DNA from: Spartobacteria bacterium LR76
Lineage (GTDB): Bacteria > Verrucomicrobiota > Verrucomicrobiia > Chthoniobacterales > Terrimicrobiaceae
Length of the DNA: 64,000 nucleotides
Reading direction: 5' to 3'
NCBI GenBank assembly: GCA_003054655.1
Contig: QAYZ01000014.1
Coordinates: 372,001-436,000, forward strand
A program made the translations under genes and the position numbers. Positions 3,084 through 61,371 of the stretch are shown one piece after another (position 1 is the stretch's first letter; each line of letters begins with the position of its first letter). The notes beneath the pieces were generated by a model. That model was given only the letters and a program-made list of their open reading frames with translations. It searched no databases and was not told the origin of the DNA.

Positions 3084-3100
3084 GGGAGATATGAGGTGGA

Positions 3101-4866: not shown

Positions 4867-4867
4867 C

Positions 4868-8653: not shown

Positions 8654-8667
8654 GGGAAACTTTGTGA

Positions 8668-8701
8668 AATCGCGGGCTAGTCAAACCAGGTAATCGCGGG
8701 C
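8668..8701 (-). promoter_or_regulatory. Direct repeat upstream of the GHL6-type gene, operator candidate
   Basis: The 10-mer AATCGCGGGC occurs at 8668-8677 and again at 8692-8701, exactly 24 bp apart, 15 to 48 bp before the ATG at 8653. Tandem direct repeats at about two helical turns are typical of AraC-type binding sites, and two AraC regulators are encoded near 16-18 kb. The link is inference. Confidence 0.35.
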
Positions 8702-8762
8702 AATCGGACCGTCTCCACGATTCGCGACGTTTCAGAGACTTCTCTTCTCACGGGAATCCTTA

Positions 8763-16129: not shown

Positions 16130-16188
16130 CGTTCGTTCGCGATTCACAATGGACTTTCCGAGGGAACATTTGTACTATCTTAGGATTC

Positions 16189-16986: not shown

Positions 16987-17181
16987 TTGCCGCGCGAGGA
17001 CGATGTGGGTCGGTTGCCTCTCCCGGAGTCCATCGTACTAATACGCTTCATCTTGCTGCGGGACGCTTTGTGTCTGGAGATTGGTGGTCGTATGGTTCTG
17101 GTACAATTCTCCGCTCTCATTGACAGCGCGGTTCTCTCATGTCATTTATTCTGAACCCCCCGCCGTTTCCTAAAAGCTGTT

Positions 17182-45807: not shown

Positions 45808-47550
45808 CTACGCGATGCGTTTGTTGCGGCGTGAGCGTAGCACCAGGAACAAGCCCGCTCCAATCAACAACGCGGTTGTCGAAGGCTCCGGAATTACGAC
45901 CAGGTTCAGCCCGCTCGCCTGAAAGTACGCTGATTTTCCGCCGCCCAGGTCATAGGCATTGGAAATACCGATATTGGAGACATTGGTCAGGCTGACCGTG
46001 GCGGAGCCATTGATGAGCGCATAAGTGCCCGAGGCTGTCGCGGAGGAAAGCCCGACGAGATCCGCCACGCTGAAGCCGCCGAAGGTCACGGAAGCCCCGT
46101 TCACGGTCAGGGTGTTTGTCAGGCTGAAGACAAACTTCGCGCCGGACTGCAAGGCAAGGGAGCCGCCGATTGTCCCATCGCCACCGATGGATGCTCCCGA
46201 GTTGACCGTGACAGCGCCTGTTGCGGCGGAACTGTCTCCTTCAATGAGCAGCGTTCCGGCTGAGACTGTTGTCGTGCCATTATAGGTGTTCGTGCCGGTG
46301 AGGACCCATTTTCCGTTTCCCGCCTTGATCAGGTTTAGCGTAGTGGCTGATCCATTGGTGATGGCTCCGATGGAATTTGATGCCGTGCTGCTGCCCTGAA
46401 GCGTGAAGTTTTTGACTCCGCTGCTTGCGCCGGCAATCCCGTTGCTGACGATCAGCGCCCCACTGCCGTCGGCCTGCAGGGCGGAGGCGGAGGAGTTGAT
46501 CTGGAACGTCTTGGCTGTGGTTTCGCCGGAACCATTGTAGATCAGGCTGCCGCTGTCCGCCGGCAGGCTGCCTAGCTTGATGGATCCGCTTCCGAGGTTG
46601 GTATTGATGGAGCCCACTTTAATGGCTCCGCCGCGGATGACGGTGCCTCCGCTTGAGGTATTGGTTCCGGTGAGTGTGAGCGTTGTTGTCCCCGTTTTTG
46701 TCACGCCTGACGATGCGCCGACTCCTGTGATATTGTTTGCAAACGTATAGTCTGAAGTCTGGGCGAAGGTCAGCACCGTGCTGTTGTCATTCAGATTCAC
46801 TGCGCCCGTGCCCAGTGAGCCTGCGGTGCCTCCCAACGTGAGCGAGCCGCGTACGTCCGTGGTGCCGGAGTAGGTGTTGGCACCGGTGATGGTTTTGGCT
46901 CCTCCACCCCAGATCCAGAGATTGGCCGTTCCACTGATGACCCCGTTCAGGGTCAACGCACCGCGGGAAACCATGATCTGCTGATTGCCGGAGACCGCGA
47001 GGTTCGCGTTCATCGTCACGTAGGGCAGATTCGAACTGCTCACCGAGCCGACATCGATCAGGAAATTTCCCACCGTCCCTGCTCCGGCAGACGACCCGTA
47101 GCTCGTACTGGTGCCGCTCAGCGTGATGGTCTGTCCGCCCACCGTCGAGCCAATGGTGATGATGTTTGCGCTATTGGTATTCGCGTAGTTGAAGAAAAGC
47201 GTGTTTCCCGTCTGGTTTCCATTGAGGCTGACGGTGAATGGTGAGGTCACGGTGGATCCCCCCGCCACGAAGACGAGATTGTCAGTGGCTGAGGTGCTGG
47301 TTTGAAACGCTCCGCCGCCTCCGCCGGTGGAATCGGTGTTCCAGAAATTGCTTGTGCCCCAGGTTCCCGTCGGCACATCACCCGCTCCCGCCGTCGTACC
47401 ATTCGTGTCCCAATAAAGATTCGTCGCCGATGCGGAAGCCATCGCAACTGCCAGTGCGGCCAGGGTGCTGAGTACCGGTTTCGTCTGCGCGAGGGGAGCA
47501 CCGCTGTGTCCGGTGCATGACTTTTTGGCGGTGGATAAGGTGGTGTTCAT
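45808..47550 (-). CDS. PATR-repeat PEP-CTERM surface protein
   Basis: The 580-residue protein has a long signal region (KPVLSTLAALAVAMASASA), repeated autotransporter-associated beta-strand units (KTITGANTYSGTTDVRGSLT, TTLTLTGTNTSSGGTVIRGG, GKWVLTGTNTYNGTTTVSAG) and a C-terminus VIPEPSTTALLIGAGLFLV with a basic tail RSRRNKR. It should form a beta-helix fibre sorted by an exosortase; no autotransporter barrel is present. A GTTAACTGG operator lies 78 bp upstream of the ATG at 47550, and CAACCTCCC lies nine bases before the ATG. Composition is very rich in Gly, Thr and Ser. It is the first gene of the series leading to the GH50-like enzyme and esterase, perhaps holding the polysaccharide near them. 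Confidence 0.85.
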   Translation of the reverse strand: MNTTLSTAKKSCTGHSGAPLAQTKPVLSTLAALAVAMASASATNLYWDTNGTTAGAGDVPTGTWGTSNFWNTDSTGGGGGAFQTSTSATDNLVFVAGGSTVTSPFTVSLNGNQTGNTLFFNYANTNSANIITIGSTVGGQTITLSGTSTSYGSSAGAGTVGNFLIDVGSVSSSNLPYVTMNANLAVSGNQQIMVSRGALTLNGVISGTANLWIWGGGAKTITGANTYSGTTDVRGSLTLGGTAGSLGTGAVNLNDNSTVLTFAQTSDYTFANNITGVGASSGVTKTGTTTLTLTGTNTSSGGTVIRGGAIKVGSINTNLGSGSIKLGSLPADSGSLIYNGSGETTAKTFQINSSASALQADGSGALIVSNGIAGASSGVKNFTLQGSSTASNSIGAITNGSATTLNLIKAGNGKWVLTGTNTYNGTTTVSAGTLLIEGDSSAATGAVTVNSGASIGGDGTIGGSLALQSGAKFVFSLTNTLTVNGASVTFGGFSVADLVGLSSATASGTYALINGSATVSLTNVSNIGISNAYDLGGGKSAYFQASGLNLVVIPEPSTTALLIGAGLFLVLRSRRNKRIA

Positions 47551-47622: not shown

Positions 47623-47637
47623 CGCTTACCAGTTAAC
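47623..47637 (-). promoter_or_regulatory. Operator site 1 (GTTAACTGGTAAGCG)
   Basis: First of five sites sharing GTTAACTGG plus a WWANCR tail. It lies 78 bp (from the core) before the ATG of the PATR/PEP-CTERM gene and points toward it. It overlaps the stop codon of the upstream small secreted protein gene. Confidence 0.7.
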
Positions 47638-48290
47638 TAGAGGGTCATCGTTGTCGGCTGGATCTTAATCTGGAAGGAACCAGCAACAGGGGGAGTTTTG
47701 AAAAGCACCTTGCTCTTGAAAGAGAAGCCATTCATTCCCCCATTGCGATAATCGACCAATCCCTGCCAGTCTGCCGGCATATCGAGCGAAACCGCATCTC
47801 CCGTGGGGGCGGCAAAGACAAACACTCCTTTAGCTCCGTCGACCAGATTCGGCGAGCCGGAAATGTCGGGAAAGGTTTTCGGAGTCTGATTGCCGAAGGC
47901 GTAGCGACCTCCCAGCACGAACTCTGTGCGGATGAACATCGAGAAAAACAACCCGGCGGCATCGGCCGGAAGATTTCCATATGTGCAGGTGACCTCTCCG
48001 GGCGCGCTGACTTCATACCGGAACGTGGCCCCAGATTTGAATGAGACTGACACCTCGGTCTCGGTGCTGCTTGTGATCTCGGGTTTTTCCCGTTCGGAGG
48101 CCGGTTTGCCCTGGATGATCAACTGAGGCAGTTCCATCGTGATCGACCCAAGCGCCGTTTCCATGTGCAAGCCGATCTTTGTCGGATTCGCCTTGGGATT
48201 ATCATTGAACGTCGAGAGGGCGATATCGTCGGCGGCCAGGCGGGTCATGGCTGCCGCACACAACAGGATGGAAGCGAGGAGGAGTTTCAT
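47637..48290 (-). CDS. Small secreted beta-sandwich protein (stand-alone homologue of the GH50-like N-terminal domain)
   Basis: The 217-residue product has a signal peptide (MKLLLASILLCAAAMTRLAA) and no catalytic motif. It aligns by eye over nearly its full length with residues about 35-208 of the GH50-like enzyme at 42766-45603: SAPGEVTCTYGNLPADAAGL against RGNGTIACSFSGVPTNALGF, FVLGGRYAFG against FKQGGKFSIG, and SLDMPADWQGLVDYR against SIKTPADYQQVQDNR. So it is a free copy of that domain, probably for polysaccharide binding. It follows pseudopilin gene D by 10 bp as the last gene of cassette 2, suggesting it is exported or displayed together with the pseudopilus. The ATG at 48290 is chosen for the signal peptide. 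Confidence 0.65.
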   Translation of the reverse strand: MKLLLASILLCAAAMTRLAADDIALSTFNDNPKANPTKIGLHMETALGSITMELPQLIIQGKPASEREKPEITSSTETEVSVSFKSGATFRYEVSAPGEVTCTYGNLPADAAGLFFSMFIRTEFVLGGRYAFGNQTPKTFPDISGSPNLVDGAKGVFVFAAPTGDAVSLDMPADWQGLVDYRNGGMNGFSFKSKVLFKTPPVAGSFQIKIQPTTMTL

Positions 48291-48300
48291 AATCTGGAAT

Positions 48301-48939
48301 TCATGGACGGAATATTTGGACACGGCCAGTAAGAGGATCGATTTGCAGAGTGGCAAAGTTGGCACCTTGGGCGACGGAACGGTCGCCCTCCATCACCAAC
48401 GTCAGAAAGCTGTTGTTCCTGGAAAGCGGATCGTTTCCGGAGGCCGGAATCGCCGAACCATCGGGCTTGAAACGCAAGGCGACAAAGGGCGGGTTTCCAT
48501 AACCCCCGACGCGGACCGGCGATGTCTGACTGGTCATGGTCAGCATGCCGGATTGGGTGGTGTCCGAGGAAAAGATGACAGGGCTGGAAAGATACCGGGG
48601 GCGCGTGAGAGGATTCGCCGATGCGCCATCGATCACGTAGGCCTGAACGGCCCGCCAGACCTTGGGCGAGGCGGATGGTGATTCATTGAAGTCCGGGAGC
48701 TGAAAAAATCTCACCTCCACCGGAAGGTTGCGCGAGATTGCCATCTGTCGGGCGTAGCCGAGGAGATCGCTGACGGCCAGGCTTTCCGATCCCAGCTTGG
48801 AAGCCCGGAGAGTGCCGATCATCCCTGGCAATGTCAGTGCAGCCAACAGTGCGACGATGGCCATAACCGTCAGCAACTCGACGAGGCTGAAGGCGCAGGC
48901 GCGTCGATCCCGCATAAAGACGCCGTCGGTTCCGCTCAT
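48301..48939 (-). CDS. Verru_Chthon cassette protein D, copy 2 (GspH/FimT-like pseudopilin)
   Basis: The 212-residue protein has a prepilin N-terminus, ACAFSLVELLTVMAIVALLA, with Ala at -1 and Glu at +5, then a strand-rich domain ending LQIDPLTGRVQIFRP. This end and the segment SRNLPVEVRFFQLPDF correspond to the copy 1 D protein (KNREVEVRFIELKE). Its ATG at 48939 overlaps the stop codon of gene A (ATGA). Here D follows A, whereas in cassette 1 D precedes A, so the two genes have exchanged places while keeping tight coupling. An in-frame ATG at 48915 is an alternative start with a shorter leader. Confidence 0.87.
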   Translation of the reverse strand: MSGTDGVFMRDRRACAFSLVELLTVMAIVALLAALTLPGMIGTLRASKLGSESLAVSDLLGYARQMAISRNLPVEVRFFQLPDFNESPSASPKVWRAVQAYVIDGASANPLTRPRYLSSPVIFSSDTTQSGMLTMTSQTSPVRVGGYGNPPFVALRFKPDGSAIPASGNDPLSRNNSFLTLVMEGDRSVAQGANFATLQIDPLTGRVQIFRP

Positions 48940-51900
48940 GGGGCAAACTCCCTCGCATTAATGACCCGTGTTTTGTAAAGTTTCCCAAGCGCGGTTTGCT
49001 CCCCCGGTTGCGCATAGTCGGGGATGCGCTGGTCGTTTGGATCGATGTAACGCTCGATAATCTCAGCTCCCCGATCCTCGGCTACGACACGATCGACGCC
49101 CTCCCGCCACACAGTAGGGTCGCTCCCCTTGATTTTCTTTAGGCTTTGCGCACGGTAGTGAATTGTAAAGGTGTTCGATTTCGTGGTGAGCCGGGGATAA
49201 ATATCTGCATAGGGTTTTTCTCGGCTGTTGTCTCCGGTGAGCCGCCGGGTATCCCAGTAGGTGGACATGCTGGAGTACGACGGCGCGTCAGATGGCACCA
49301 GATGGATGCTGCAAATCTCGGCCGCCGATCGAAAAATATCGGGATCGACCGTGAGCCCGTAAGCCTTTGGATTAAACCTTCGAGCAAACCCTTCCAGGGT
49401 TTTGTCGGCATCGACGTCTTTACGGAAATAGACGTTCGAAGGTGCCTGACTTGGAGCGCCGGAGGTCTTGTAGGTATCGGCTTTCGCGTCGGGAATGGAA
49501 AGCAGCTTCTCGGACTTCAGGACGGCCCGGACGGCGGTATCCCTTGTCAGGTAGGTGAAGGGAACCATCTGGTAGTTCATATTCACCCGGCCAGCGGTCG
49601 AGAGCGGCTCGCTGATGGCGTAAGGTTCAACCACCGGCATGTGAAAGAGATCCAGAAAGAGGTAATCCGGCGGCTGCCCGGCACTCGATGCGCCCGTGAC
49701 ATCGCGATCCTTGTTCCCTGCATGAAGGCCGGTGGGATCAGGTCGAAAGAGAAGTGTTTGCCACGGTCGATTCGTGAGCACTCCGGTCGGCAGCGAGCCA
49801 AACGTGACCGGGGAGGGAATGAGCCGGTTGGGCGAGAAATATGTCGGCCCGGGATCGACGCCGGATTGGAAGTCGATTCCGAAGTAAGGCTGGTAGGTGC
49901 CCTTGCCAATATCGCCCTCGTCCGCCTTGTTGATGTAGGCTCCGTCCTGCTGGTTGGCGATCCCGTTGTCCCAGTCGCCCACGAGACCGGGTGCCTGAAA
50001 GACCCCGCTGTGAGATGGGACGATCGTGTCCCGTACCGAGCTCCAGCCATATCCGATATAGGGGGATTCGCCGCTCGCATTGGGGTCGGCGCCGTTGATG
50101 GTATACTGGTCGCGGTAGCTAGTGTAAGCAGGGCTGCTGACATTGGCCAGCTTGCCCCCGGTGCCTCCGTAAAACGGATAGTTGTTTCCGGCGCGCAGCA
50201 TGTGGGCAAAGCGCTGGCTAGTATTATTGAAGTATTCATGCGCAGCGAAAAGATTGTCCGAAGGCTTGACCTCCTCGCGCGCGGCAATGAGGCGGATGTC
50301 GCCGGGCGTCGCGACGACGCTGCGGACCACATCCGTCTTTGAAACAAAGGGATACGCGCGATTTCCCCCGTCGATGCGTCCCCCGCCCAGGAACTTGCGG
50401 TAGTTTACGACCGATTTGGTGCTGTCGTTCGAGTTCTTGACCTTGTCTGGAGCAAGGGAGGGCGCCGGGAAGGGGGAACTGCCAGATGAAGGAAAGGTTA
50501 TCGTCACGGTCTGCACCAGCTTCCCGATGACTTTTCCGCTGGAGTCCAGCGCATGGATCTCCACCTTCACGTCGCCTCCCGTGAAGTTGAAGGTCCCATT
50601 TGCCGTCATGTCGCTGGCCTGGCCAGTGTATCCAGTGATCGCGCTGATAAATGGGTAGGAGGAATTTGTCAGCTGACGGAACCCGACAATGCCGCCGAAG
50701 TAGGTGTCGCCAGCCACGCTGAGATCATTGACTCTCCCGGTGAAAGCGCTTGCGGGGAAGCCCATGGAAACCGGATTGCCCGACCCGCTGTCCCACTTGA
50801 ATCCGTCGAGTCCGCTGATTTTAACGGTGAACCACGGCCGGGCTTGCACCAGTCCCAGCGAGGGATCGAAAAACTGGACAAAGAAACCGGCCTGTACGCG
50901 GATCTTGCCGGGTTCGACGCGGGGGATCACGTTTCCCTTTGCATCCGTCGTGTCGGTGGGATTTGTCGTGTTGTCAGCCGTGCCGATAAAGACCAGCGAT
51001 ACGCTCTGCACGGTGGGAAAACGTCCGAACCCTCTCGTATGGGTCGTGGAATCCACGATGGGAATGACCTGTCCGACTCCGCCATTGTAGGCATCGAATT
51101 TCTGTGTGTATTTGCCTGCATCCGTCAGGGTGCTGTCCCGGAGATTTGTGCAGCGGATATAGTCAAACATCTCGGTCAGGATCTGGTTGCGGTCGTTGCC
51201 ATACTTTGCCGCGAATGATCCGCCGAAGCCTGGAATGTCCTGCGACGTCAGGCTCCTCAGATACTCAAGCAGCATGCGATTGCGTCCCAGCCCGTCGACC
51301 GAGGGTGTCGCAGGCAGGTCGGTGGTGGCATCGTTCGGGTCCTGCCGGGTGAAATAATAACGATATGGGACGCCGAGGTCGTTTCGCATGGTGGAGCAGA
51401 AGGCAATCAGCTTGTCAAAGGCCGTACGATGCGTGGCATCATCGGAGGCGCTCAGCGGCCACATGCTGATGCGCGGCTGATTGAAGAGGTTCACGTCCGG
51501 CGCACGACTGCTGGCGGTGAGGAAGAATTTGTTTTGCTCCAGAGTGTCCTGGTTGATGACTGCGGCATTATTTTGTTCACGTTCACCGGATGCCAGGATC
51601 GGCTTGAAGACGATCTCGTCGATGCTTGCGTAAAGGCGGTCGGGGTCCGGGTTGAGAGCCCCCGTGGCTTTTTGCGTGCCGCCTTCCGACCCGCCGCCCG
51701 TGATGCGCGGGGTGATGGAGTAGATCTGATTCGCGGTCAGGTTCTTGAAGACCGTGCTGAGCGATGTCATTGCGGGATGACCGGGGTAGCGCTGGTACTC
51801 ATGCTGGGCAGGCTGATACACGGCCAGGTTAAAGTCATCCGTGCTGTACGCACGAGGCGTATCCGTGAAGACGCCTTCGGAAGAGGTGTTTATGTTCAGT

Positions 51901-52619
51901 TTGCAGGTTTCATCATCTGCCCAGAAGGCGATACGCCCGGTGATGGGATTTGCATCGGTTGCTCCAGCCACCACGGCCTTGGTTCCTCCTGTGTCGGACT
52001 GAGGGGCGACGACTGTGCCGTCGGCCAGTACGTAGAGCCAACGCACCGGCATGGGGGCGGGATTACTCCCGGTTCCTACCGCGATCGGGGCATCCGGGCT
52101 AATGTCAAAGCCCTCGACGTTGCCTTTGGCTCCGGGATCGAGGATGGGATAGATCGTCTTTGTCCCGGAAGTCATCGGCTGATTCAGGTCGGTAAAAATG
52201 GCGGTCTGGCTGGCCCAGTCGGACGGAACTTTTTCCGTGTCCGAGTACGGGTCGAATGCGCCCGTGCCTGTCATCGCGCTGGAGGTAAAAAGTTTGTACC
52301 AGCTCGCGGGCTTGCCTGCCGCATCGTAGGTGCGGATCATTCCGGGCTGGGAGGCCCAGGCCATAGGTGCCCCCGTGTTGTCCACGCCTCGGGTTCCCGC
52401 ATTGATCTGTCCGATTGCGAGATTTACGGCTGATTGTGCGAGGAGCCTCGACGAGGCTCCCTCCGCATAGGATTTGGAAGACTGCAGTTCCGTATGCACG
52501 GTCGAGAAGAACGCGAGCGCAAGAGCGGCAAGGAAGACGAGGCTTGCGAGGACGATCACCAGCGCCATGCCGCAGCGCGGATCGTGCCGTTTTGCGTTGA
52601 GCGGTAATTGCGCGTTCAT
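48936..52619 (-). CDS. Verru_Chthon cassette protein A, copy 2 (GspK/PilX-like)
   Basis: The 1,227-residue protein begins with a short leader and a hydrophobic helix, CGMALVIVLASLVFLAALAL, with Gly at -1 but no Glu at +5, as in GspK, the tip pseudopilin of type II secretion. Downstream is a very large exported region with conserved blocks FWADDETCKLNINTSSEG, PGHPAMTSLSTVFKNLT, YASIDEIVFKP, ILTEMFDYIRCTNL and LFLDLFHMPVVEPYAISEPL, several of which are also seen in copy 1. It is three to four times larger than GspK, so extra domains probably recognise a substrate. The ATG at 52619 overlaps the C stop codon by one base; an ATG at 52631 is possible. No enzyme motif was recognised. Confidence 0.87.
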   Translation of the reverse strand: MNAQLPLNAKRHDPRCGMALVIVLASLVFLAALALAFFSTVHTELQSSKSYAEGASSRLLAQSAVNLAIGQINAGTRGVDNTGAPMAWASQPGMIRTYDAAGKPASWYKLFTSSAMTGTGAFDPYSDTEKVPSDWASQTAIFTDLNQPMTSGTKTIYPILDPGAKGNVEGFDISPDAPIAVGTGSNPAPMPVRWLYVLADGTVVAPQSDTGGTKAVVAGATDANPITGRIAFWADDETCKLNINTSSEGVFTDTPRAYSTDDFNLAVYQPAQHEYQRYPGHPAMTSLSTVFKNLTANQIYSITPRITGGGSEGGTQKATGALNPDPDRLYASIDEIVFKPILASGEREQNNAAVINQDTLEQNKFFLTASSRAPDVNLFNQPRISMWPLSASDDATHRTAFDKLIAFCSTMRNDLGVPYRYYFTRQDPNDATTDLPATPSVDGLGRNRMLLEYLRSLTSQDIPGFGGSFAAKYGNDRNQILTEMFDYIRCTNLRDSTLTDAGKYTQKFDAYNGGVGQVIPIVDSTTHTRGFGRFPTVQSVSLVFIGTADNTTNPTDTTDAKGNVIPRVEPGKIRVQAGFFVQFFDPSLGLVQARPWFTVKISGLDGFKWDSGSGNPVSMGFPASAFTGRVNDLSVAGDTYFGGIVGFRQLTNSSYPFISAITGYTGQASDMTANGTFNFTGGDVKVEIHALDSSGKVIGKLVQTVTITFPSSGSSPFPAPSLAPDKVKNSNDSTKSVVNYRKFLGGGRIDGGNRAYPFVSKTDVVRSVVATPGDIRLIAAREEVKPSDNLFAAHEYFNNTSQRFAHMLRAGNNYPFYGGTGGKLANVSSPAYTSYRDQYTINGADPNASGESPYIGYGWSSVRDTIVPSHSGVFQAPGLVGDWDNGIANQQDGAYINKADEGDIGKGTYQPYFGIDFQSGVDPGPTYFSPNRLIPSPVTFGSLPTGVLTNRPWQTLLFRPDPTGLHAGNKDRDVTGASSAGQPPDYLFLDLFHMPVVEPYAISEPLSTAGRVNMNYQMVPFTYLTRDTAVRAVLKSEKLLSIPDAKADTYKTSGAPSQAPSNVYFRKDVDADKTLEGFARRFNPKAYGLTVDPDIFRSAAEICSIHLVPSDAPSYSSMSTYWDTRRLTGDNSREKPYADIYPRLTTKSNTFTIHYRAQSLKKIKGSDPTVWREGVDRVVAEDRGAEIIERYIDPNDQRIPDYAQPGEQTALGKLYKTRVINAREFAP

Positions 52620-53635
52620 CAGGAACTCCATTTCGCTCCCGGCAGGGGAACCTTTGTGCGGAAGACACGATAGCCGATGTTCCTTGCGGACAGGCGGCGT
52701 TCCAACTCGGCGATGTCTTCCTCCAGCTTTGCTTCGGACGAGGAATCAAGGAAGAGTCCGTCCAGGCCGACATCCGGTGCGGTGGCGGGATTGCCGAGGC
52801 GCTGTGCGGAAGGCTCGTCTATCACGACCATGGCGACCTCCACCAGCGGCGGAAGCTGATGGGCTGTCGCTGGCTGAGGGCTGGATGTGGCGTCCTTCAT
52901 CGAGTCATATTCGTAGCCGGAAACCAACGGCGAGGCGCTTCCATCGAGGCTGGAGACTTGCGGCAGGATGACGAGCGCGATGACGTTCTCGGCGATCTGA
53001 TGGACCGGCGGATCGCTCGATGCCAGCGGGCCGGTGAACCATGCCGTCGATCCCGTGTCGGCATAGACCGAGAGATTCTGCGTCGGCTGGAAAAACTGCA
53101 TGAGACGAAATCGATGGCGCGTGGCTGGCTTATTCGATCCCAGGGAGTCCAGGAACGCCGGACGGAGCGGATCTGCGCCGTACTGGATGAAGAACCCTGT
53201 CGAGTTCAGAGCGGAATCCAGATGCTCGAAGCTCGCCTTGTTGGAATAGCCCAGCGGAGCCTGAAAGAAGACAGCTTGTGTCACCTGGCCCGGGACGAGC
53301 GCCTTGCCCGTGACAAACTGAAGATCCGAGTTCCTCCGGTAGCGTGTCGGATTCGCCAGGTCGTCGTAATCATAATACGTGTTAAGTGTAGCCTGTCCCA
53401 GCGTGCGGGTGAGCGTGTCAAACGCAGCCCGCGCTCCCTGGATCGCCTCCACCCGGGAGTTGGTGCTACGCCATGCGTTGGTGGTCTGCTGGGTGATGCC
53501 GAAGATCACGACCATGATGATGGCCATCACCGCCGTCGCAGCTAAAAGCTCGATGATGGTGAATGCCCGTCCTGCGTTCTCTTGTCGCCGAGAGACGCCG
53601 GGCTTGAGATCGGTTCCTGGATGCTGACATCTCAC
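52619..53635 (-). CDS. Verru_Chthon cassette protein C, copy 2 (GspJ/PilW-like pseudopilin)
   Basis: The 338-residue protein has a prepilin signal GRAFTIIELLAATAVMAIIM (Ala at -1, Glu at +5). It then has the C-type body with FDTLTRTLGQATLNTYYDYD, FFIQYGADPLRPAFLDSLGS, RHRFRLMQFFQPTQNLSVY and LPPLVEVAMVVIDEPSAQRL; equivalent blocks in copy 1 are FELMTRSLSQATLNTYWDY, FFIQYGDRVALP and YRFRLMQAIQPAESFEVF. It starts with GTG at 53635, in a GTGA overlap with the stop codon of gene B; no in-frame ATG exists near it. Gene A follows with a one-base overlap, so the B-C-A-D genes form a chain of coupled translation. Confidence 0.87.
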   Translation of the reverse strand: MRCQHPGTDLKPGVSRRQENAGRAFTIIELLAATAVMAIIMVVIFGITQQTTNAWRSTNSRVEAIQGARAAFDTLTRTLGQATLNTYYDYDDLANPTRYRRNSDLQFVTGKALVPGQVTQAVFFQAPLGYSNKASFEHLDSALNSTGFFIQYGADPLRPAFLDSLGSNKPATRHRFRLMQFFQPTQNLSVYADTGSTAWFTGPLASSDPPVHQIAENVIALVILPQVSSLDGSASPLVSGYEYDSMKDATSSPQPATAHQLPPLVEVAMVVIDEPSAQRLGNPATAPDVGLDGLFLDSSSEAKLEEDIAELERRLSARNIGYRVFRTKVPLPGAKWSS

Positions 53636-54078
53636 AACGAATCGACGGGCTTCGGCAGGATCACGGAGCAGGTGTTCGTCAGAGAGGGCTGGTTGCGGCT
53701 GGAGATGCGGATCACCACGCGCTGGGCTGCGGCCATGGGTGACAAATCCGTCGGCGCTGCCACCGATGCCGTGAAGACGCGGCGCTGGTCTCCCTGCCCG
53801 TCCACCGGGATGCCGCGTTCATCGAAATAGTAGTTGGTAGCCGACAAATTGGAAGCGTCTGTACGCAATACTTCCGCGGTGATTACACTAAGGATTTCCG
53901 ATTGCGTGGTGGTCGACATCGCATCCCGGAAGGTGGATAGACCCACCGGGATTAGCCCCATCACACCCAGCATCGCAAACGAAACGATTCCGATGGCTAG
54001 TACTGCCTCGACAAGGCTAAACGCTCCACGCCCTAAACGGCGGCAGGTGTCTTTTTTTTGCTGCGGGCAAAATTGCAT
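53632..54078 (-). CDS. Verru_Chthon cassette protein B, copy 2 (GspI/PilV-like pseudopilin)
   Basis: The 148-residue protein has a prepilin signal GAFSLVEAVLAIGIVSFAML (Ala at -1, Glu at +5) followed by GVMGLIPVGLSTFRDAMST, the conserved stem of B proteins (copy 1: VVGLLPVGLGGLRQA). The first ATG is at 54078; a longer TTG start at 54120 would give an unusual leader. It is the first gene of cassette 2. Upstream, between it and the 3' end of the GH3 gene, lies operator site 2 (54193-54207) pointing toward B, so the whole cassette is likely under the control proposed for the enzyme operons. Confidence 0.86.
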   Translation of the reverse strand: MQFCPQQKKDTCRRLGRGAFSLVEAVLAIGIVSFAMLGVMGLIPVGLSTFRDAMSTTTQSEILSVITAEVLRTDASNLSATNYYFDERGIPVDGQGDQRRVFTASVAAPTDLSPMAAAQRVVIRISSRNQPSLTNTCSVILPKPVDSL

Positions 54079-54192
54079 GGGGGTGTCAGGTAGGTTATCG
54101 TGACGAACTGTTGTCGACAATACAGTCTTGGGTGTCGGTCTGTTGGACGGTTTACCGATACCTTCTTTTCCGCCATTCCGCTAATTACGAAA

Positions 54193-54207
54193 TGCTTTCC
54201 AGTTAAC
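54193..54207 (-). promoter_or_regulatory. Operator site 2 (GTTAACTGGAAAGCA)
   Basis: Identical over 15 bases to site 4. It lies 120 bp before the ATG of pseudopilin gene B and 15 bp after the GH3 stop codon, pointing toward cassette 2. Confidence 0.75.
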
Positions 54208-54222
54208 CTGGGGTCTTGACGT

Positions 54223-56505
54223 TCATCGAACCTCGAGGACGGCCGAAAGGACGTTCTCCGAGTCTCCTCCCACCATCACGTCGAACTCCCCGGGTTCGAC
54301 GATGAACTCGAGGTTTTCGTTGTGATACCCGAGCTCCGTCTTGCCGACGTCAAATGTTACCGTCACCGACTCGCCGGCTTTGATAAAGACTTTCTGAAAA
54401 CCCTTCAGTTCCTTCGTCGGTCGCGTCACCTGGCTCACGTGATCCCGAATGTACATCTGGACAATTTCGGAGGCGTCAACGAAGCCCGTATTTTTGACGC
54501 AGACGGAAACAGATGTTGTGTCGTCCATGGAGATCCAGGGGGACGAGAGCGTGATCCCGGAGTATTCGAATGTGGTGTAACTTAACCCATGGCCGAAGGG
54601 AAAGAGCGGAGTCGATGGGCTTCGGTGGTACTTCTTCCGGGCGCTCGGTTTATGGTTGTAATAGACTGGCAGTTCCTCAGCCAAGCGAGGGAATGTCACC
54701 GTTGTTTTTGCGGATGGGCACACGTCCCCGAAGAGAATCTCGGCCAGAGCCGTGCCTCCCTCATGCCCGGGATACCAGGCGCAGAGAAGGGCGTCGCTTT
54801 GGCGGGCGATTTTTTCCACCGTATGAGGACGTCCCTGGACGAGGACCGTGACCAGCGGTTTGTCCAACGCGTGCAACCTTTTCACCAGGGCCGCCTGGGC
54901 ACCGCCGAGGTCGATATTTCCCCGGTCAATGCCTTCTCCGCAATCAATGTCGTCGATTCGAGTGTCGTCGGCGATCGCCTGTCCACCCTCGGTGTATTGT
55001 GTATCAAATGGACGTGCGCTGGACCCGCCGACACAGACCACGATCACATCGGCCTTGCTGGCTGCCTCGATGGCCTTTGCAATCCCGGCCTCGGAGGGGT
55101 CGGTGATGCCGCAGCCACGGGCATAGTCCACGAATATTCCGCGAGCGGCGGCGGCCGTCTGTATTCCCTGGAGGATGGTCACCACATTGCTGGTGTCCTG
55201 GTAGCAGACGTAGTCACCGATCTGGTTGTAGAGATTGTGAGCGTTGGGTCCGATGACGGCGATTTTTCGTATTCCGTCAGCCTTCAGGGGAAGGATCCCA
55301 TCGTTCTTCAATAGCACGATGCCTTCTCTTGCGGCCTGCAGGTTAAGCTCCCTGTGTTCACGGCAATGTACGCGAGCACTTTTTTCCGGATCGACATAGG
55401 GATTCTCAAACAGCCCCAGCAGAAACTTGATGCGGAGAATACGTCGGACCGCCTCGTCAATCTGTGGGACGGTGATCCGTCCGCGTTCCAGAGCGTCGGG
55501 CAGAAAGTTGAAGGCATCGTCGCGCAGGCTTTGCTCGATGCCGGCGTCCACCGCCTGGGCGGCGGCCTCAGCCATATCCTGTGCGGTGAAATGATAGTTA
55601 AAGAGCTGGTCGATGCCGCACCCATCCGAAACGACGAATCCCGGGAAACCCCAGTCCTCCTTCAGGAGATCAGTCAATAAATACCTGTTGCGATGGATGG
55701 GGATGCCATCCATCTCCGTGTAGGATGCCATCACCGACATTGCCCCTGCGCCAATGGCTTTCTTGAACTGCGGAAGGAACCGCTCGTGAAGCTCCTGCCT
55801 GCCGCAGTGAACGGGACCGTTGTGCTGGCCGCCCTCGCTTGAGCCAAAGGTGGCAAAGTGCTTGAGCGTTGCCATGGCGGATGAGTCAGCCGTGTAGTCG
55901 CCAGCATGCATGCCGGAGACGATCTGCGCTCCCAGTTCCCCGGTGAGGTAGGCGTCTTCCCCCAGAGTCTCCTCCACCCGGGACCATCTCGGGTCTGTTG
56001 CCAGATCAAGCACGGGAGAGTAGGACATGTGCGTGCCCTCCGAGCGAAGCTCCGTGCCGATCACTCTGCCCACGCGGTACATGAGATCCCGATTCCATGA
56101 GGATGCGAGGCCGATGGCCGCCGGGAATACCGTGGTGCCGAGACCTGCCACTCCATGAGGGCAGTTGGCCGCGAGGAGCGCGGGTATGCCGAGACGGGTA
56201 TGCTCCACCAGATGGCGCTGGATGGCGTTGGCCAGTTCAGCCGCCTCACGTGGGCTGAGCCCGTCCTCACGCGACACCCCGCTCCATGGATCGGCGCGTT
56301 GTACCGCCGAGAGTGTGCCGATGCCGTTTTGCGCCTTGGAGAAAAACTCGTCCGAGAGCTGGATGCAGCGGTCTTTCCCTCGCACGTAGCACTTCCACCC
56401 CGCGAGGTTCTGGTTCATCTGAGCCAGCTTTTCCTCGATGGTCATCATGGACAAAAGTGCGCTGATTCGTTCATCGAGAGGAGCGTGGGGGTCGCTATAG
56501 TTCAT
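54223..56505 (-). CDS. GH3 beta-glycosidase
   Basis: The 760-residue protein shows the GH3 order: N-terminal barrel with GIPALLAANCPHGVAG, KHF (215-217) and the nucleophile Asp294 in GFVVSDGCGIDQL; the alpha/beta sandwich with IAVIGPNAHNLYNQIGDYVC; and the C-terminal fibronectin III-like domain (FGHGLSYTTFEYSGI, then VTRPTKELKGFQKV). Members release glucose, xylose or other sugars from the non-reducing end. No signal peptide is seen, so it probably works in the cytoplasm. It is divergent from the deacetylase gene, with operator site 3 between them and oriented toward GH3. The linkage cleaved is not predictable from motifs alone. Confidence 0.9.
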   Translation of the reverse strand: MNYSDPHAPLDERISALLSMMTIEEKLAQMNQNLAGWKCYVRGKDRCIQLSDEFFSKAQNGIGTLSAVQRADPWSGVSREDGLSPREAAELANAIQRHLVEHTRLGIPALLAANCPHGVAGLGTTVFPAAIGLASSWNRDLMYRVGRVIGTELRSEGTHMSYSPVLDLATDPRWSRVEETLGEDAYLTGELGAQIVSGMHAGDYTADSSAMATLKHFATFGSSEGGQHNGPVHCGRQELHERFLPQFKKAIGAGAMSVMASYTEMDGIPIHRNRYLLTDLLKEDWGFPGFVVSDGCGIDQLFNYHFTAQDMAEAAAQAVDAGIEQSLRDDAFNFLPDALERGRITVPQIDEAVRRILRIKFLLGLFENPYVDPEKSARVHCREHRELNLQAAREGIVLLKNDGILPLKADGIRKIAVIGPNAHNLYNQIGDYVCYQDTSNVVTILQGIQTAAAARGIFVDYARGCGITDPSEAGIAKAIEAASKADVIVVCVGGSSARPFDTQYTEGGQAIADDTRIDDIDCGEGIDRGNIDLGGAQAALVKRLHALDKPLVTVLVQGRPHTVEKIARQSDALLCAWYPGHEGGTALAEILFGDVCPSAKTTVTFPRLAEELPVYYNHKPSARKKYHRSPSTPLFPFGHGLSYTTFEYSGITLSSPWISMDDTTSVSVCVKNTGFVDASEIVQMYIRDHVSQVTRPTKELKGFQKVFIKAGESVTVTFDVGKTELGYHNENLEFIVEPGEFDVMVGGDSENVLSAVLEVR

Positions 56506-56665
56506 GCAGTGTGTCGTCAGTTTGGAAATATTCCCGATGGCGGGGCCGCAACGGGAACTGACTGCTCCGACAGAGCGACGCGCATTCAGACCCAGCGTGA
56601 CATCGGCTTCCCGCTCATGGATGCATCATTCTTGTTTTCGGGAACCAGGCCGGACAGACCTAATA

Positions 56666-56680
56666 TGATTACCAGTTAAC
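56666..56680 (-). promoter_or_regulatory. Operator site 3 (GTTAACTGGTAATCA)
   Basis: It lies in the 228-bp divergent region between GH3 and the polysaccharide deacetylase. It is oriented toward GH3 (about 160 bp from its ATG) and is 53 bp before the deacetylase ATG, so it could serve both. Confidence 0.7.
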
Positions 56681-56733
56681 TTTTGTCGGTATTTGCTCCG
56701 TCCTGGTCTGTCTTCTTGCTAAGGTTTTCCGGC

Positions 56734-57591
56734 ATGAAAGCACCGCGTCGCATCGAGATCCCTTCCTTTCCCAAGAACAAACGCGTGGCCGTGACGACCA
56801 GCTTCGACGACGGGCACACTCATGACCGACGAATCGTGGGAGCCTTCAATGAGTGGGGACTGAAGGGAACCTTTAATCTCAACTCCGGCCTCCTGAGACG
56901 GGAGGGAACTCCCTCTCCCGACGGGGCCCGCAGCTATCTCGATGCGTCGGAGGTCGCAGACCTCTACCGGGGGCACGAGGTTGCCATCCACACGGCGACA
57001 CATCCTCATTTGCCAAGGCTGGATGCCTCGCAGATCGCCCTTGAGGTGTTGGAGGATCGAAAGGCTCTGGAGGATCTCGTTGGCTACCCGGTACGAGGGA
57101 TGGCTTATCCCTATGGAACCTATGACCAGAGAACGATCGATCTGCTGCGCTCCCTGGGAATAGTCTATTGCCGCACGTGTGAAAACGCGGAGCCATGCTT
57201 CCCGCCGAAAGACCCTCTTGCCTGGCCGGCGACCGCGCACCAGTACGCCGCCGGACCAAGCGTGCCGGAGAGATTTCAGCATCTCTATGACAACTCTCGG
57301 CGGGGAGGGGTCTTTTTCATCTGGGGTCACGGTTTCGAGTTTCACGACCGCAATGACTGGGAGGCGCTTGAGCGCATCTATCGTCCGCTATCTGGAAAAC
57401 CTGACGTTTGGTACTGCACAAATATCGAACTCTGTGACTACGAGGATGCGCGGAAACGCCTGGTGATCGCCGCCAATCGCCGAACCGCTTTCAACCCCAG
57501 CGGACTTGCTATTACCATTCTGGTCGACGGAGTGGTGATGGAAGTACCGCCGGGAGCGACTCGTTCACTAATATCTTCCGAAAACACATAG
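56734..57591 (+). CDS. Polysaccharide deacetylase (NodB/CE4 family)
   Basis: The 285-residue protein has the NodB motifs: TTSFDDGHTHD with catalytic Asp25 and metal-binding Asp26, and the metal site HTATHPHL with His86 and His90. GMAYPYGTYDQRT and GVFFIWGHGFEF fit the later CE4 motifs. The family removes N- or O-acetyl groups from chitin, xylan or peptidoglycan. There is no signal peptide with the ATG at 56734; the in-frame extension to 56683 has a hydrophobic run (SVFLLRFSG) but begins with a non-ATG codon next to the operator and is less likely. It is probably a cytoplasmic step on imported acetylated oligosaccharides. Confidence 0.85.
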   Translation: MKAPRRIEIPSFPKNKRVAVTTSFDDGHTHDRRIVGAFNEWGLKGTFNLNSGLLRREGTPSPDGARSYLDASEVADLYRGHEVAIHTATHPHLPRLDASQIALEVLEDRKALEDLVGYPVRGMAYPYGTYDQRTIDLLRSLGIVYCRTCENAEPCFPPKDPLAWPATAHQYAAGPSVPERFQHLYDNSRRGGVFFIWGHGFEFHDRNDWEALERIYRPLSGKPDVWYCTNIELCDYEDARKRLVIAANRRTAFNPSGLAITILVDGVVMEVPPGATRSLISSENT

Positions 57592-57618
57592 TCTGAGAGG
57601 TTCGCTGCATTGCAGGGT

Positions 57619-57635
57619 GCTCGCGAAGCGCGAGC
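57619..57635. terminator. Hairpin between convergent genes
   Basis: GCTCGCG and CGCGAGC pair perfectly around a three-base loop, with AGGG/CCCT nearby extending the stem. It lies in the 60 bp between the deacetylase and mannanase 3' ends. No T-run. Confidence 0.5.
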
Positions 57636-57651
57636 CCTCTGCTGCTTCGCC

Positions 57652-58779
57652 TTAATTCGAGGAGAGCCCGAACAACTCCCGATATCTCTTCGCGGCTTCA
57701 GGCATCTTGGTCATGCCTTTGCCTTCCGGCCAGGGAAAGAGCATGTGGTCTCCATCGGGAGCATTTACATCGAAATAGCAGTGAAAGTAGACGTTGTTTT
57801 CCGGGTTGGTAATGAACTCATGCATCTGCTCGATAAAGTACGGGTTGTCCCGCCCGCCATGCTTTCCGTAGACGAGTCCCCACTCACAGATGGCCAGAGG
57901 CTTGTTGCCATGCTCCCTGGCAAACTTCACCCAAAAGGCTAGTCCGTCACGCCCCGGTAGGTCGGACAAAAGGTTTTCCTTCCAGCTCTTTTCCCGGCGT
58001 ATCTGGATTTCCTCCGGTGTCGCATCCTCCGGCAGGGGGTAGATATCCGGTATCCATGCCTGATCGTACACATCGAGCCCGACGAAATCGACATACTCGT
58101 CGCCGGGCCATGCGGCAAAAGCCTTGCTGCCTCGCAGTCCGATGGTCGGGTTCCAGCAAAACTGCAACTTCTCCGCTCCTGGCACGGCTCGCATCGTCTT
58201 GACGATCTCCCGCCAGTACCCGGCGAATGCCTCGGGATTCTTCCCCGCGCGCCAGGTGTACCAGCCGCCATTGAACTCCCAACCCGGGCGCAAAATGGTA
58301 TTGCCTAAGCCGTTCTTCACCAGATTCCTTGCCAGAGCCTCGAAGTGCGCATCGTAAGCGCCGGCGGCTCCCTGCTCGAGTGAGACTGGTTCTCCCGCTC
58401 CGGAGCCAGTTTTGGGTCCGTCACCTTTCCACGGTCCGACGAGCATCGGCACGCTTAGCACTAGGCGCCGGCCAGGAACTGCATTGACCCATTGTCCCCA
58501 GGGTTTCAAGATCCAGTCTCCTCCTCGCATGAGGTCCCAGGAGTCGAAAGGCAGAAACTCCTCCGCCCAAATGACCGATCGATTAATCCATCTGCTGTAG
58601 GCGTCGAAGTACCCCTCGCTGAGTCGTTTCACGCTCCCTTCGACCACGGTATACGGCGGAGCTTCATTGTTGCCCAGCTGAAGGTGAGCGGGAGCTTCGG
58701 CCTGCAAGGCTGGGCTCGACAGGAATGCCATGAGACCGGCAAGGGCGACACTCGGAATCAGGGGGGGATGGGCGGGCAT
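57652..58779 (-). CDS. Secreted GH26 endo-beta-mannanase-like enzyme
   Basis: The 375-residue protein has a signal peptide (IPSVALAGLMAFLSSPALQA, cleaved near AEAP). It shows GH26 features: acid/base Glu168 in LRPGWEFNGGWYTW, nucleophile Glu299 in PLAICEWGL, and VDFVGLDVYDQAW between. Most GH26 enzymes are endo-beta-1,4-mannanases; some cut mixed-linkage glucan or xylan. The ATG at 58779 begins the signal; a GTG at 58797 is an alternative. It is divergent from the LacI-type regulator, with operator site 4 between the starts and oriented toward this gene (58 bp before the ATG). With the GH130 enzyme downstream this supports a mannan pathway. Confidence 0.87.
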   Translation of the reverse strand: MPAHPPLIPSVALAGLMAFLSSPALQAEAPAHLQLGNNEAPPYTVVEGSVKRLSEGYFDAYSRWINRSVIWAEEFLPFDSWDLMRGGDWILKPWGQWVNAVPGRRLVLSVPMLVGPWKGDGPKTGSGAGEPVSLEQGAAGAYDAHFEALARNLVKNGLGNTILRPGWEFNGGWYTWRAGKNPEAFAGYWREIVKTMRAVPGAEKLQFCWNPTIGLRGSKAFAAWPGDEYVDFVGLDVYDQAWIPDIYPLPEDATPEEIQIRREKSWKENLLSDLPGRDGLAFWVKFAREHGNKPLAICEWGLVYGKHGGRDNPYFIEQMHEFITNPENNVYFHCYFDVNAPDGDHMLFPWPEGKGMTKMPEAAKRYRELFGLSSN

Positions 58780-58831
58780 GGTTTTCTCTTGAACCACTAA
58801 GTCAGTTTATCTTACAGGTCAAAAGCCTCCC

Positions 58832-58846
58832 TGCTTTCCAGTTAAC
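58832..58846 (-). promoter_or_regulatory. Operator site 4 (GTTAACTGGAAAGCA)
   Basis: It lies between the divergent GH26 and LacI-family genes, only 4 bp before the regulator's ATG and 58 bp from the mannanase ATG (core). Binding here would block the regulator's own translation-start region, an autoregulatory layout. Confidence 0.75.
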
Positions 58847-58850
58847 CTTT

Positions 58851-59882
58851 ATGCCCTCCATTACACTCCGGGAACTCGCGGCCCTGGCCGGGTGCTCGCA
58901 TGCCACTGTTTCCCTCGCCCTCAGGAAGCATCCCCGCATCTCGGCGGAGACTCGCGAGCGAATCCTCAAGCTGGCCCGGGAGACGGGCTACAGCCGCGAT
59001 CCCGTGGTTGCGTCGCTCATGACCCAGCTACGCACGACGAAGCGAAATCGCAGCTTTGAAAAAATCGCCCTGCTTTCCTACTGGGACACGCCGGATGCGT
59101 GGCGGACCTCTCCGCACGACACCACCGGATTTCAGGGCGCTTGCTCTCGAGCTGCGGAGCTTGGCTATGAGATTGAGGAGTTTTGGGGCAAGGCTCCGGG
59201 CATTACTTCGCAGCGGTTGAGCAAGATCCTGCATACGCGCGGCATCCGCGGCCTGATCGTTGGTCCTTTGCCCAGGCCCTGGGGACACGTTTCGTTGAAC
59301 TGGACTCACTTTGCCGCTGTGGCGATAGGTAATACTGTGGTGCGTCCCGGCTTGCACCGGGTCATTCACTCGCAGTCCCAGGGAATGAGCCTCGCTCTGC
59401 GATCACTCAAGCATCAAGGCTACGAGCGCATCGGATTCACCAGCCTGATCGACCAGAGCCGTCGCGTCAACCAGGGCTGGCTCGCCGCCTATCTCCTCCA
59501 CTCCTTCGAGCAGCCAGCGAAGCTTCGCGTCCCGCCGCTGATCCTTAAGTCCTGGAACCGGGAGGAATATCGTCGCTGGCTGGAAAAGCATAAGCCCGAC
59601 GCCATCGTGAGCAATTACGATGTCCCGCTTCATTTCCTTTCCGATCTCGGCCTGCGCGTCCCGGAGGATATGGCATTTGCCTCGCTCGACCGCATGCACG
59701 AGACCGACCCTTACGCCGGAATCGATCAACTGCGAGGCAAGATGTTTGGAGCGGCGGTTGATCTGTTGGTCTCGCTGATTGAGGGCAACCAGTTTGGGTT
59801 GTCGGAGCATCCGAAGATTGTCCACTTCGAGGGAGTGTGGAAGGCGGGTCCGACAGTGAAAAAGAAGATAGCCGTCAGCTGA
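58851..59882 (+). CDS. LacI-family transcriptional regulator, candidate master of the 47-60 kb regulon
   Basis: The 343-residue protein has an N-terminal helix-turn-helix (ITLRELAALAGCSHATVSLA, residues 4-23) followed by LRKHPRISAETRERILKLAR and a periplasmic-binding-protein-like sensor domain (FVGPLPRPWG-like segment LIVGPLPRPWG, KHQGYERIGFTSLIDQSRR, KPDAIVSNYDVPLHFLSDLG, MAFASLDRMHE). The hinge region GYSRDPVVASLMTQLR differs from the classical GYxPNxxARxL. It should repress in the absence of an inducing sugar. Operator sites with a TTAA core are found at five nearby intergenic positions, one directly at its own start. That it binds them is inference from position. Confidence 0.88.
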   Translation: MPSITLRELAALAGCSHATVSLALRKHPRISAETRERILKLARETGYSRDPVVASLMTQLRTTKRNRSFEKIALLSYWDTPDAWRTSPHDTTGFQGACSRAAELGYEIEEFWGKAPGITSQRLSKILHTRGIRGLIVGPLPRPWGHVSLNWTHFAAVAIGNTVVRPGLHRVIHSQSQGMSLALRSLKHQGYERIGFTSLIDQSRRVNQGWLAAYLLHSFEQPAKLRVPPLILKSWNREEYRRWLEKHKPDAIVSNYDVPLHFLSDLGLRVPEDMAFASLDRMHETDPYAGIDQLRGKMFGAAVDLLVSLIEGNQFGLSEHPKIVHFEGVWKAGPTVKKKIAVS

Positions 59883-59904
59883 TAATTCACGTCCTTCAGA
59901 TTAG

Positions 59905-59919
59905 GTTAACTGGATAGCA
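59905..59919 (+). promoter_or_regulatory. Operator site 5 (GTTAACTGGATAGCA)
   Basis: It lies in the 82-bp space between the LacI-family gene and the GH28 gene, oriented toward GH28 and about 50 bp before its ATG. Confidence 0.72.
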
Positions 59920-59964: not shown

Positions 59965-61371
59965 ATGCGTACCTCTATTGTCGAATCGCCGCCCAATCTC
60001 CAGGGCGGGAGAGATCTCGTCGTCCGAGCGGGGGCGACTGAGACCCATACCGGGATCATCCAGGCCGCAATCGACAAATGCGCTGCGGCGGGCGGCGGCC
60101 GGGTGGTGTTGACTCCAGGCGACTATTGCGCCGGTACGATCATCTTGCGAAGCAGGGTCACGCTTCATCTGGAAAAGGGGGCGATTCTTTCTGGAACCTC
60201 GGACGTAAGCGCGTACCTGCAAAAGACTAGTCAGCAGGGTGCCCGGATCGTGGGAGGCTCAGCGACAGCCCTGCTTTTCGCGGAGAACGCAGACAACATT
60301 GCCATCACCGGGGAGGGCATCGTCAATGGTAACGGCTCGTTTTTTTGGGAAAAACTGGAGACACCACATCCCTGGGTCGAAGAAGCCAGGCGCTTCGGAA
60401 AATGGGTGCCCGCCTTTGACTACAAGGCAAAACCGCGTCCGCGTGCGCTGATCCTTTTTGCGAACTGCTCCAATGTGCGGCTGGAAGGATTTCGGATTCA
60501 GAACTCGCCGGCATGGACAATTCACCTGCTGGCCTGCTCCAGCGTGGTCGTGCGAAGCATCGTCCTGAGGGGAGTCCTGCACGGGTGCAATACGGACGGA
60601 CTGGATCTCGATGGTTGCAGCGACGTACTGGTGGAAGACTGTGATATCTTTACGGGCGACGATGCGATCTGCCTCAAGAACACCAACACCTGGGGGTTGA
60701 AGCGCCGCTCGCACGACATTATCGTGCGTCGCTGCCGTCTGCGCTCCACCACGCATGGATTCACCGTTGGCACCGAGACGCAGGATGACTTTGAGGACAT
60801 CTCGTTCACGGATTCGCAGATCGAGCAGGCAGGGGAATATCACACTCTCACCGGCATCGGCCTAAGCATCCTCGACGGCGGGGCGATTCGCCGGATGCAC
60901 ATTGCGAATGTTTCAATCTCGGATGCTGTAGGCGCCATCCAGATCCGGCTCGGGAATGAAGGCCGCGGCCAATCGGTCAAGGTACCGGGGGAGATTCGGG
61001 ACATCACCTTGGAAAATGTCACCATACGACGCGCGCACGGAAACTCGCTCATCGCCGGGCTGCTGCACCATCCGCTGCAGAACATCATCCTTCGCAATAT
61101 CAGCCTGGAGTTCGTCGACTTCGCAAATCCCGCGAATATCTCGGCAGGGTTTCCGGAGATGGAGTCCGAGTTTCCGCCCAATACGACGTGGAGGTTTCTC
61201 CCCGCCTTCGGATTCTACTGCCGCCATGTCGACGGACTGGAGCTGACCAATGTCACCATCCTGCCTGGAGCGCAGGACGACAGGCCCGCGCTGGCGCTGA
61301 AAGATGTCCGCTCCCTGCATTGTGAGAGCTTCGACGCGGCGGAGTATATCCGTCTCCCGGGCGAGGAGTAA
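59965..61371 (+). CDS. GH28 polygalacturonase-like glycosidase
   Basis: The 468-residue protein is a right-handed beta-helix enzyme with GH28 hallmarks: CNTDGLDLDGC (208-218, catalytic Asp in NTDGLD) and FTGDDAICLKN (229-239, the Asp pair). A third block THGFTVGTETQDD replaces the usual GHG segment, as in exo-acting and rhamnogalacturonan- or xylogalacturonan-type members. No signal peptide is visible, so it probably hydrolyses imported uronic-acid-containing oligomers. The ATG at 59965 is preferred over a GTG at 59956. It is the first gene of a plus-strand series GH28-GH130-symporter with an operator 50 bp upstream. Confidence 0.87.
   Translation: MRTSIVESPPNLQGGRDLVVRAGATETHTGIIQAAIDKCAAAGGGRVVLTPGDYCAGTIILRSRVTLHLEKGAILSGTSDVSAYLQKTSQQGARIVGGSATALLFAENADNIAITGEGIVNGNGSFFWEKLETPHPWVEEARRFGKWVPAFDYKAKPRPRALILFANCSNVRLEGFRIQNSPAWTIHLLACSSVVVRSIVLRGVLHGCNTDGLDLDGCSDVLVEDCDIFTGDDAICLKNTNTWGLKRRSHDIIVRRCRLRSTTHGFTVGTETQDDFEDISFTDSQIEQAGEYHTLTGIGLSILDGGAIRRMHIANVSISDAVGAIQIRLGNEGRGQSVKVPGEIRDITLENVTIRRAHGNSLIAGLLHHPLQNIILRNISLEFVDFANPANISAGFPEMESEFPPNTTWRFLPAFGFYCRHVDGLELTNVTILPGAQDDRPALALKDVRSLHCESFDAAEYIRLPGEE

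Follow-up and report, generated by a model that had tools for sequence, protein, structure and literature searches.

The genome of Spartobacteria bacterium LR76 carries the nine-base word GTTAACTGG five times among carbohydrate and surface genes, raising the question of what, if anything, reads it. The window, the whole 64-kb stretch that we analysed, covers positions 372,001-436,000 (forward strand) of contig QAYZ01000014.1 (GCA_003054655.1), part of a draft assembly (G000; 4.75 Mb, 16 contigs, 96% complete). A first-pass annotation had proposed that the word marks the operators of a new LacI-type regulon. All five reported cores are present (47629-47637, 54199-54207, 56672-56680, 58838-58846 and 59905-59913; four on the minus strand, one on the plus strand), with no others in the window, and each extends to an exact match of the 15-base GTTAACTGGWWAKCR, sites 2 and 4 being identical. 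As had been claimed, every copy lies between genes or at a gene end: all five are intergenic, in an interval (47.5-60 kb) of which intergenic DNA makes up 5%, with site 1 overlapping the stop codon of a 242-aa open reading frame by one base. Below, gene starts are by-eye readings of the sequence, and distances run from the gene-proximal end of the element to the likely ATG.

45808..47550, minus strand: PATR-repeat surface protein (PF12951, TIGR02601), presumed target of candidate operator 1
47623..47637, minus strand: candidate operator 1, GTTAACTGGTAAGCG, 72 bp upstream of the PATR gene ATG
48301..48939, minus strand: Verru_Chthon cassette protein D, pseudopilin-like (TIGR02596, 110.8 bits, cut-off 70)
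48936..52631, minus strand: Verru_Chthon cassette protein A (TIGR02600, 1017 bits, cut-off 332)
52619..53635, minus strand: Verru_Chthon cassette protein C (TIGR02599, 283.6 bits, cut-off 256.5)
53632..54120, minus strand: Verru_Chthon cassette protein B (TIGR02598, 69.7 bits, cut-off 51.4), start probably ATG 54078
54193..54207, minus strand: candidate operator 2, GTTAACTGGAAAGCA, 114 bp upstream of the cassette B in-frame ATG 54078
54223..56505, minus strand: GH3 beta-glycosidase (PF00933, PF01915, PF14310), presumed target of candidate operator 3
56666..56680, minus strand: candidate operator 3, GTTAACTGGTAATCA, in a divergent gap, with the GH3 ATG at 160 bp and the polysaccharide deacetylase ATG at about 53 bp
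56734..57591, plus strand: polysaccharide deacetylase (PF01522), possible second target of candidate operator 3
57652..58779, minus strand: GH26 mannanase-type hydrolase (PF02156, E 6e-12), presumed target of candidate operator 4
58832..58846, minus strand: candidate operator 4, GTTAACTGGAAAGCA, in a divergent gap, with the GH26 ATG at 52 bp, ending 4 bp before the lacI ATG
58851..59882, plus strand: LacI-family regulator, 343 aa, presumed binder, recognition helix CSHATVSLALR
59905..59919, plus strand: candidate operator 5, GTTAACTGGATAGCA, 45 bp upstream of the GH28 in-frame ATG
59965..61371, plus strand: GH28 pectinase-type hydrolase (PF00295), presumed target of candidate operator 5
61466..62461, plus strand: GH130 beta-mannoside phosphorylase (PF04041, E 1.6e-64), 95 bp after GH28

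The best explanation of our data is that the five elements are probable operators for the LacI-family protein whose gene lies at 58851-59882, a reading to which we assign a probability of roughly 0.91. It is supported by the exclusivity of the sites, their conservation, their co-occurrence with the regulator, the sites of distant orthologues, covariation with the recognition helix, and the positions of the sites. The regulator has an N-terminal helix-turn-helix (PF00356, residues 5-49, 44.7 bits against a cut-off of 27, E 1.1e-11) and a C-terminal periplasmic-binding-protein-like sensor domain (PF13377, 28.6 bits against 26.5, E 1.7e-6), and a PurR chain could be aligned to residues 138-309. 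The sequence DPVVASL is a candidate hinge helix: it aligns with NxxAxxL, keeping the leucine that in such a helix enters the minor groove, and the linker that follows, LMTQLRTTKRNRSFEK, is longer than in E. coli LacI. The regulator gene is the sole LacI gene found in this stretch of the genome, and candidate operator 4 stands beside its ATG, as the first-pass annotation had noted.

Among the neighbouring genes, what had been named 'pseudopilin cassette 2' is indeed a cassette, which the family models specify as a complete Verru_Chthon cassette (48301-54120) in the order D-A-C-B, with four of four proteins over curated cut-offs. GH130 has no operator of its own in a core search of the window and is possibly in one operon with GH28. 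The 242-aa open reading frame (47637-48365, minus strand) between the cassette and candidate operator 1 matches no Pfam or NCBIfam family, and the congener G001 retains its 3' end.

How exclusive is the element to this cluster? The expectation for the core in the window is 0.14, and none of 100 shuffles reached five copies, bearing out the rarity that had been asserted for it. Across the whole genome the nine-base core occurs seven times, five of them in the cluster (the reversed word occurs 10 times), and all five exact 15-mers fall within C9:419623-431919, the 12.3-kb cluster itself, before carbohydrate or surface genes, with no scattered coding matches. The genome has no copy with one mismatch. 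Allowing two mismatches adds 22 matches, which are background, since the total equals that of the reversed pattern (27 versus 27). This genome scan, which the first-pass annotation had named as a check, supports its proposal of operators and a regulator; the regulon is one local gene cluster rather than a genome-wide set.

An element this short might in principle recur by chance or by recent duplication of intergenic DNA, and one copy, site 3, carries little weight on this point, its flank being 95% identical in a congener. We nevertheless regard this explanation as negligible: 0.06-0.09 exact 15-mers are expected per genome by chance, against five within 12.3 kb; the flanks of the five sites are mutually unrelated; and the elements are better conserved than their flanks.

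The last point comes from comparison with other genomes (the congeners G001 and G002, 97 relatives and a 384-genome draw from the class). In G001, where the regulator's orthologue is 94% identical, each of the five cores recurs at the orthologous place. Base by base, the five 15-mers agree at 73 of 75 positions, as against about 75-80% identity in the aligned regions around the four informative sites, where indels occur near sites 2 and 5. Candidate operators 2 and 5 are kept at 15/15 despite these indels and candidate operator 4 at 14/15, and candidate operator 1 reads GTTAACTGGTAATCG; candidate operator 3 is also 15/15, a copy made uninformative by its 95% identical flank. Both changes fall at degenerate positions: site 1 has T for G at position 13, which the consensus allows, and site 4 differs at position 15. 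The third congener, G002, has no LacI protein above 38% identity to the regulator and no copy of the element. In the rest of the 97 relatives, outside G000 and G001, the exact consensus gave three matches and the reversed control eight; the matches in G067 and G082 were accordingly dropped as background.

More distant genomes extend this pattern. In G133, from another family, a LacI orthologue at 63% identity has an identical recognition helix, GCSHATVSLALR, and its cluster holds an exact site, GTTAACTGGAAATCG, in an intergenic gap. The GTTAAC lies 38 bp upstream of lacI, in the gap that separates it from a PATR gene; farther along comes a Verru_Chthon cassette A gene. The relaxed pattern GTTAACTGKWWADY has one site in G133 (3.8 Mb) and two in G360 (4.1 Mb), all at the lacI locus, and when it was scanned over G000, G001, G002, G133 and G360 all 13 of 13 matches lay at lacI loci, with none in G002 and one match for the reversed control. 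Footprinting around orthologues of the regulator, which had been proposed as a check, supports the LacI reading: five cores kept with the 94% orthologue, an exact site with the 63% orthologue, related sites next to relatives at 47-52%, and none in the congener that lacks an orthologue.

In G360, from another family of the order, the LacI relative shares 47% identity with the regulator and 52% with the regulator's paralogue. Of the six GTTAAC words found there, four lie between genes, two of them as GTTAACTGTTTAAC/T. They stand in the gaps that separate an IS481 transposase gene from cassette B on one side and from lacI on the other, ahead of a PATR gene and ahead of a CBM9 gene; two transposase genes adjoin sites at this locus. 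The IS481 transposase gene (L202, G360:C9:96000-115000, at 8344-9357) separates lacI from the Verru_Chthon cassette and is flanked on both sides by GTTAAC-type sites. On contigs L066 and L067, from Opitutaceae and Rariglobus, orthologues at 50% and 47% identity have the helix CSQTTVS, and the only 13-mers common to the intergenic gaps of these clusters derive from CGGTTTACGGTTAACT. A point against the reading is that at three further loci (L198, L199 and L200), where regulators related at 47-51% have other helices, the motif is absent; this would fit a changed specificity and is no independent proof.

If the word were instead a promoter element, for instance of an ECF sigma factor, it would be read by RNA polymerase and not by LacI. 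All five copies point toward the following gene, confirming the common orientation reported earlier (five of five read 5' to 3' toward the named operon), and a weak sigma-70/ECF-like open reading frame lies 6 kb off (40785-41546, plus strand, between an ABC-transporter gene and GDSL/CBM9 genes; TIGR02937 below cut-off). The orientation is weaker evidence than it appears, because sites 3 and 4 sit between divergent genes. No second block stands at a fixed distance from the word, only columns +24 and +48 being invariant within 60 bp outside the 15 bases; its distance to the start codon ranges from 45 to 160 bp; and in other families it again accompanies the LacI orthologue. A search for sigma-70 promoters at the five elements gave none that could be placed. 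We consider a promoter element highly unlikely.

Similarly improbable, in our estimate, is that the sites serve another transcription factor, such as an AraC-type protein or another of the genome's 50 LacI proteins. Two AraC-type genes do lie in the window, and asymmetric sites are possible for such regulators, yet all the sites surround lacI 58851-59882, one of them abutting its ATG, and the exact motif moves with lacI and its recognition helix across families. The AraC-type genes (16108-18312, plus strand) are adjacent to each other and belong to a second glycan cluster with GH42-like, GH2, BNR and PEP-CTERM proteins.

Other LacI genes, for their part, have different private words. A paralogue at 49% identity in the same genome, with the helix VSRTTVS, lies next to a different Verru_Chthon cassette, and its private word is TTGACWGTCAA, with two exact copies genome-wide, both in the paralogue's cluster, and a third there with one change (L069, G000:C9:212000-230000, at 11748, 11790 and 13628; conserved in G001, L070). 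The word TTGACTGTCAA belongs to this paralogue. For the regulator at C11:244999 the word is TCAAACTGTTGA: one copy immediately precedes its ATG, and another two, of which one differs at a single base, lie ahead of the cassette B gene of its cluster. At up to one mismatch, seven of the 16 genome copies fall in C11:244903-263119 (L099, G000:C11:238500-252500, at 6404, 6487, 12134 and 12185, with further copies to C11:263119). These findings fit a picture in which operator and recognition helix change together among paralogues, and the present cluster is therefore one case of a more general arrangement.

Returning to the operators of regulator 58851-59882, the 15 exact bases had been described as a directional word. 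They resolve into an invariant half, GTTAAC(TG), and a degenerate second half, GWWAKC, rather than a simple word. In this genome the element is only weakly palindromic, which counts against a LacI operator, as does its TG centre. The dyad in the window is partial (G1-C14, T3-A12, C6-G9, around that centre): the right-half bases constant in all copies, G9, A12 and C14, pair across it with C6, T3 and G1. In G360, L202 has the near-symmetric GTTAAC-TG-TTTAAC, and because of this GTTAACTGTTTAAC form we prefer an even operator centred on T|G, which is favoured rather than proven. An odd-centred palindrome, TTAAC-T-GGTAA, fits L066/L067 and the paralogue and leaves the conserved C14 of the window unaccounted for; it was set aside. 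The E. coli lac operator O1 is likewise asymmetric: a LacI dimer binds it across a strong and a weak half. The candidate operators of the window share this strong-and-weak arrangement and differ from O1 in having no sequence similarity to it, in a centre that is even (2 bp) or ambiguous where that of E. coli is odd, and in serving several separate operons instead of one.

We infer from these sequence features how the cluster may be controlled. A dimer of the regulator would bind each element, with one half on the invariant GTTAAC(TG) and the other on the degenerate GWWAKC, and would most likely repress, rather than activate, its own gene and the neighbouring promoters, namely those of the PATR protein, the Verru_Chthon pseudopilin cassette, GH3 and the deacetylase, GH26, and GH28 with GH130. 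Candidate operator 4, at the start of lacI, suggests autoregulation. De-repression of the set would follow when the periplasmic-binding-protein-like domain binds an oligosaccharide freed from the plant polysaccharide under attack, of mannan or pectin type; GH26 and GH130 point to mannan and GH28 points to pectin, and we make no choice between them.

A survey of LacI regulators provides a reference for this arrangement (Ravcheev et al., 2014, PMC4052901). About 90% of its 1300 regulators are local and 72% are autoregulated, and more than 75% of sites lie 30-140 bp upstream of the start codon. The positions found here agree with this: sites precede start codons by 45-160 bp, and one stands at the start of lacI itself. 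As in its local regulons, lacI here stands beside its presumed targets, with repeated intergenic operators, one in an autoregulatory position, and carbohydrate genes. The even palindrome with a central CG (1173 of 1303 motifs, with another central pair in 49) is the common form and not a strict criterion; unlike it, the operators here have a TG centre, which places them in a minority, and one degenerate half. A further difference from those regulons is that a pseudopilin cassette and a PATR surface protein are among the presumed targets. One local LacI with one private operator is thus a known kind of regulon. What is new is the phylum, the operator with its TG centre and degenerate half, and the placing of a Verru_Chthon cassette under probable sugar-sensing control: the survey does not name Verrucomicrobia in its text, and our literature search found no study of verrucomicrobial LacI operators or local LacI regulons. 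The result is a strongly supported candidate LacI operator for Verrucomicrobiota, a phylum of polymer degraders.

The Verru_Chthon family models (TIGR02596, TIGR02598, TIGR02599 and TIGR02600) state neither function nor regulation, and we found nothing in the literature on the cassette or its control; here it is tied to a candidate LacI operator. The tie between this uncharacterised pseudopilin cassette and carbohydrate sensing rests on operators that precede cassettes in the window and in G360, and on the private operators of two paralogues at cassette clusters. With this tie, growth on mannan or pectin becomes a direct test of cassette function. A LacI gene stands within 10 kb of the full Verru_Chthon A gene in 8 of 11 cases in G000, 10 of 13 in G001 and 9 of 13 in G002, or about 70% of cassettes compared with 17-20% of random positions. 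The binomial probability for G000 by itself is about 3e-4, calculated by hand; the three congeners share many clusters and are not independent. A second Verru_Chthon cassette occupies window positions 1-5410 (minus strand; A at about 1-2996, D at 3101-3784, C at 3769-4890 and B at 4868-5410), its protein C scoring just below cut-off. Its nearest LacI gene, C9:363102-364187, lies outside the window and has its own repeated word, CTCTAACAATAGAG, of which no good copy was found upstream of this cassette.

Tentatively, and at somewhat less than even odds, polysaccharide use in verrucomicrobial genomes may be divided among many modules that work in parallel. Each would have a LacI sensor and a private operator word of its own, and often also a Verru_Chthon cassette of its own with PATR/PEP-CTERM surface proteins. 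The cassette might in that case serve as a surface machine specific to one substrate, a pseudopilus for polysaccharide capture or enzyme export, in the role that SusCD pairs play in Bacteroidota.

The set of LacI-family genes is large, at about 50 in the 4.75 Mb of G000 and 43 and 44 over cut-off in the two congeners. With some 45-50 such genes per genome, many of them readable in the same way, these genomes offer a natural data set for the joint change of helix and operator. Five regulators (C2:70204, C3:64080, C9:452781, C11:570535 and C11:1472985) showed no repeated conserved word. Further words seen in the genome are TTCTACAA, GTTACTAAT and AACAATAGAG, and GTTACTAATCGATATTAGTAAC is probably a hairpin. 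Candidate private LacI operators, mostly conserved at the orthologous G001 loci, are TTAAGCGTTCACC, AAACTGTGTTATA, CTCTAACAATAGAG and GGGTTTAC/CGTAAACC, with positions at L087 (6575, 7680), L094 (6578, 7716, 8798), L096 (306, 6547, 7765) and L083 (5319, 6786).
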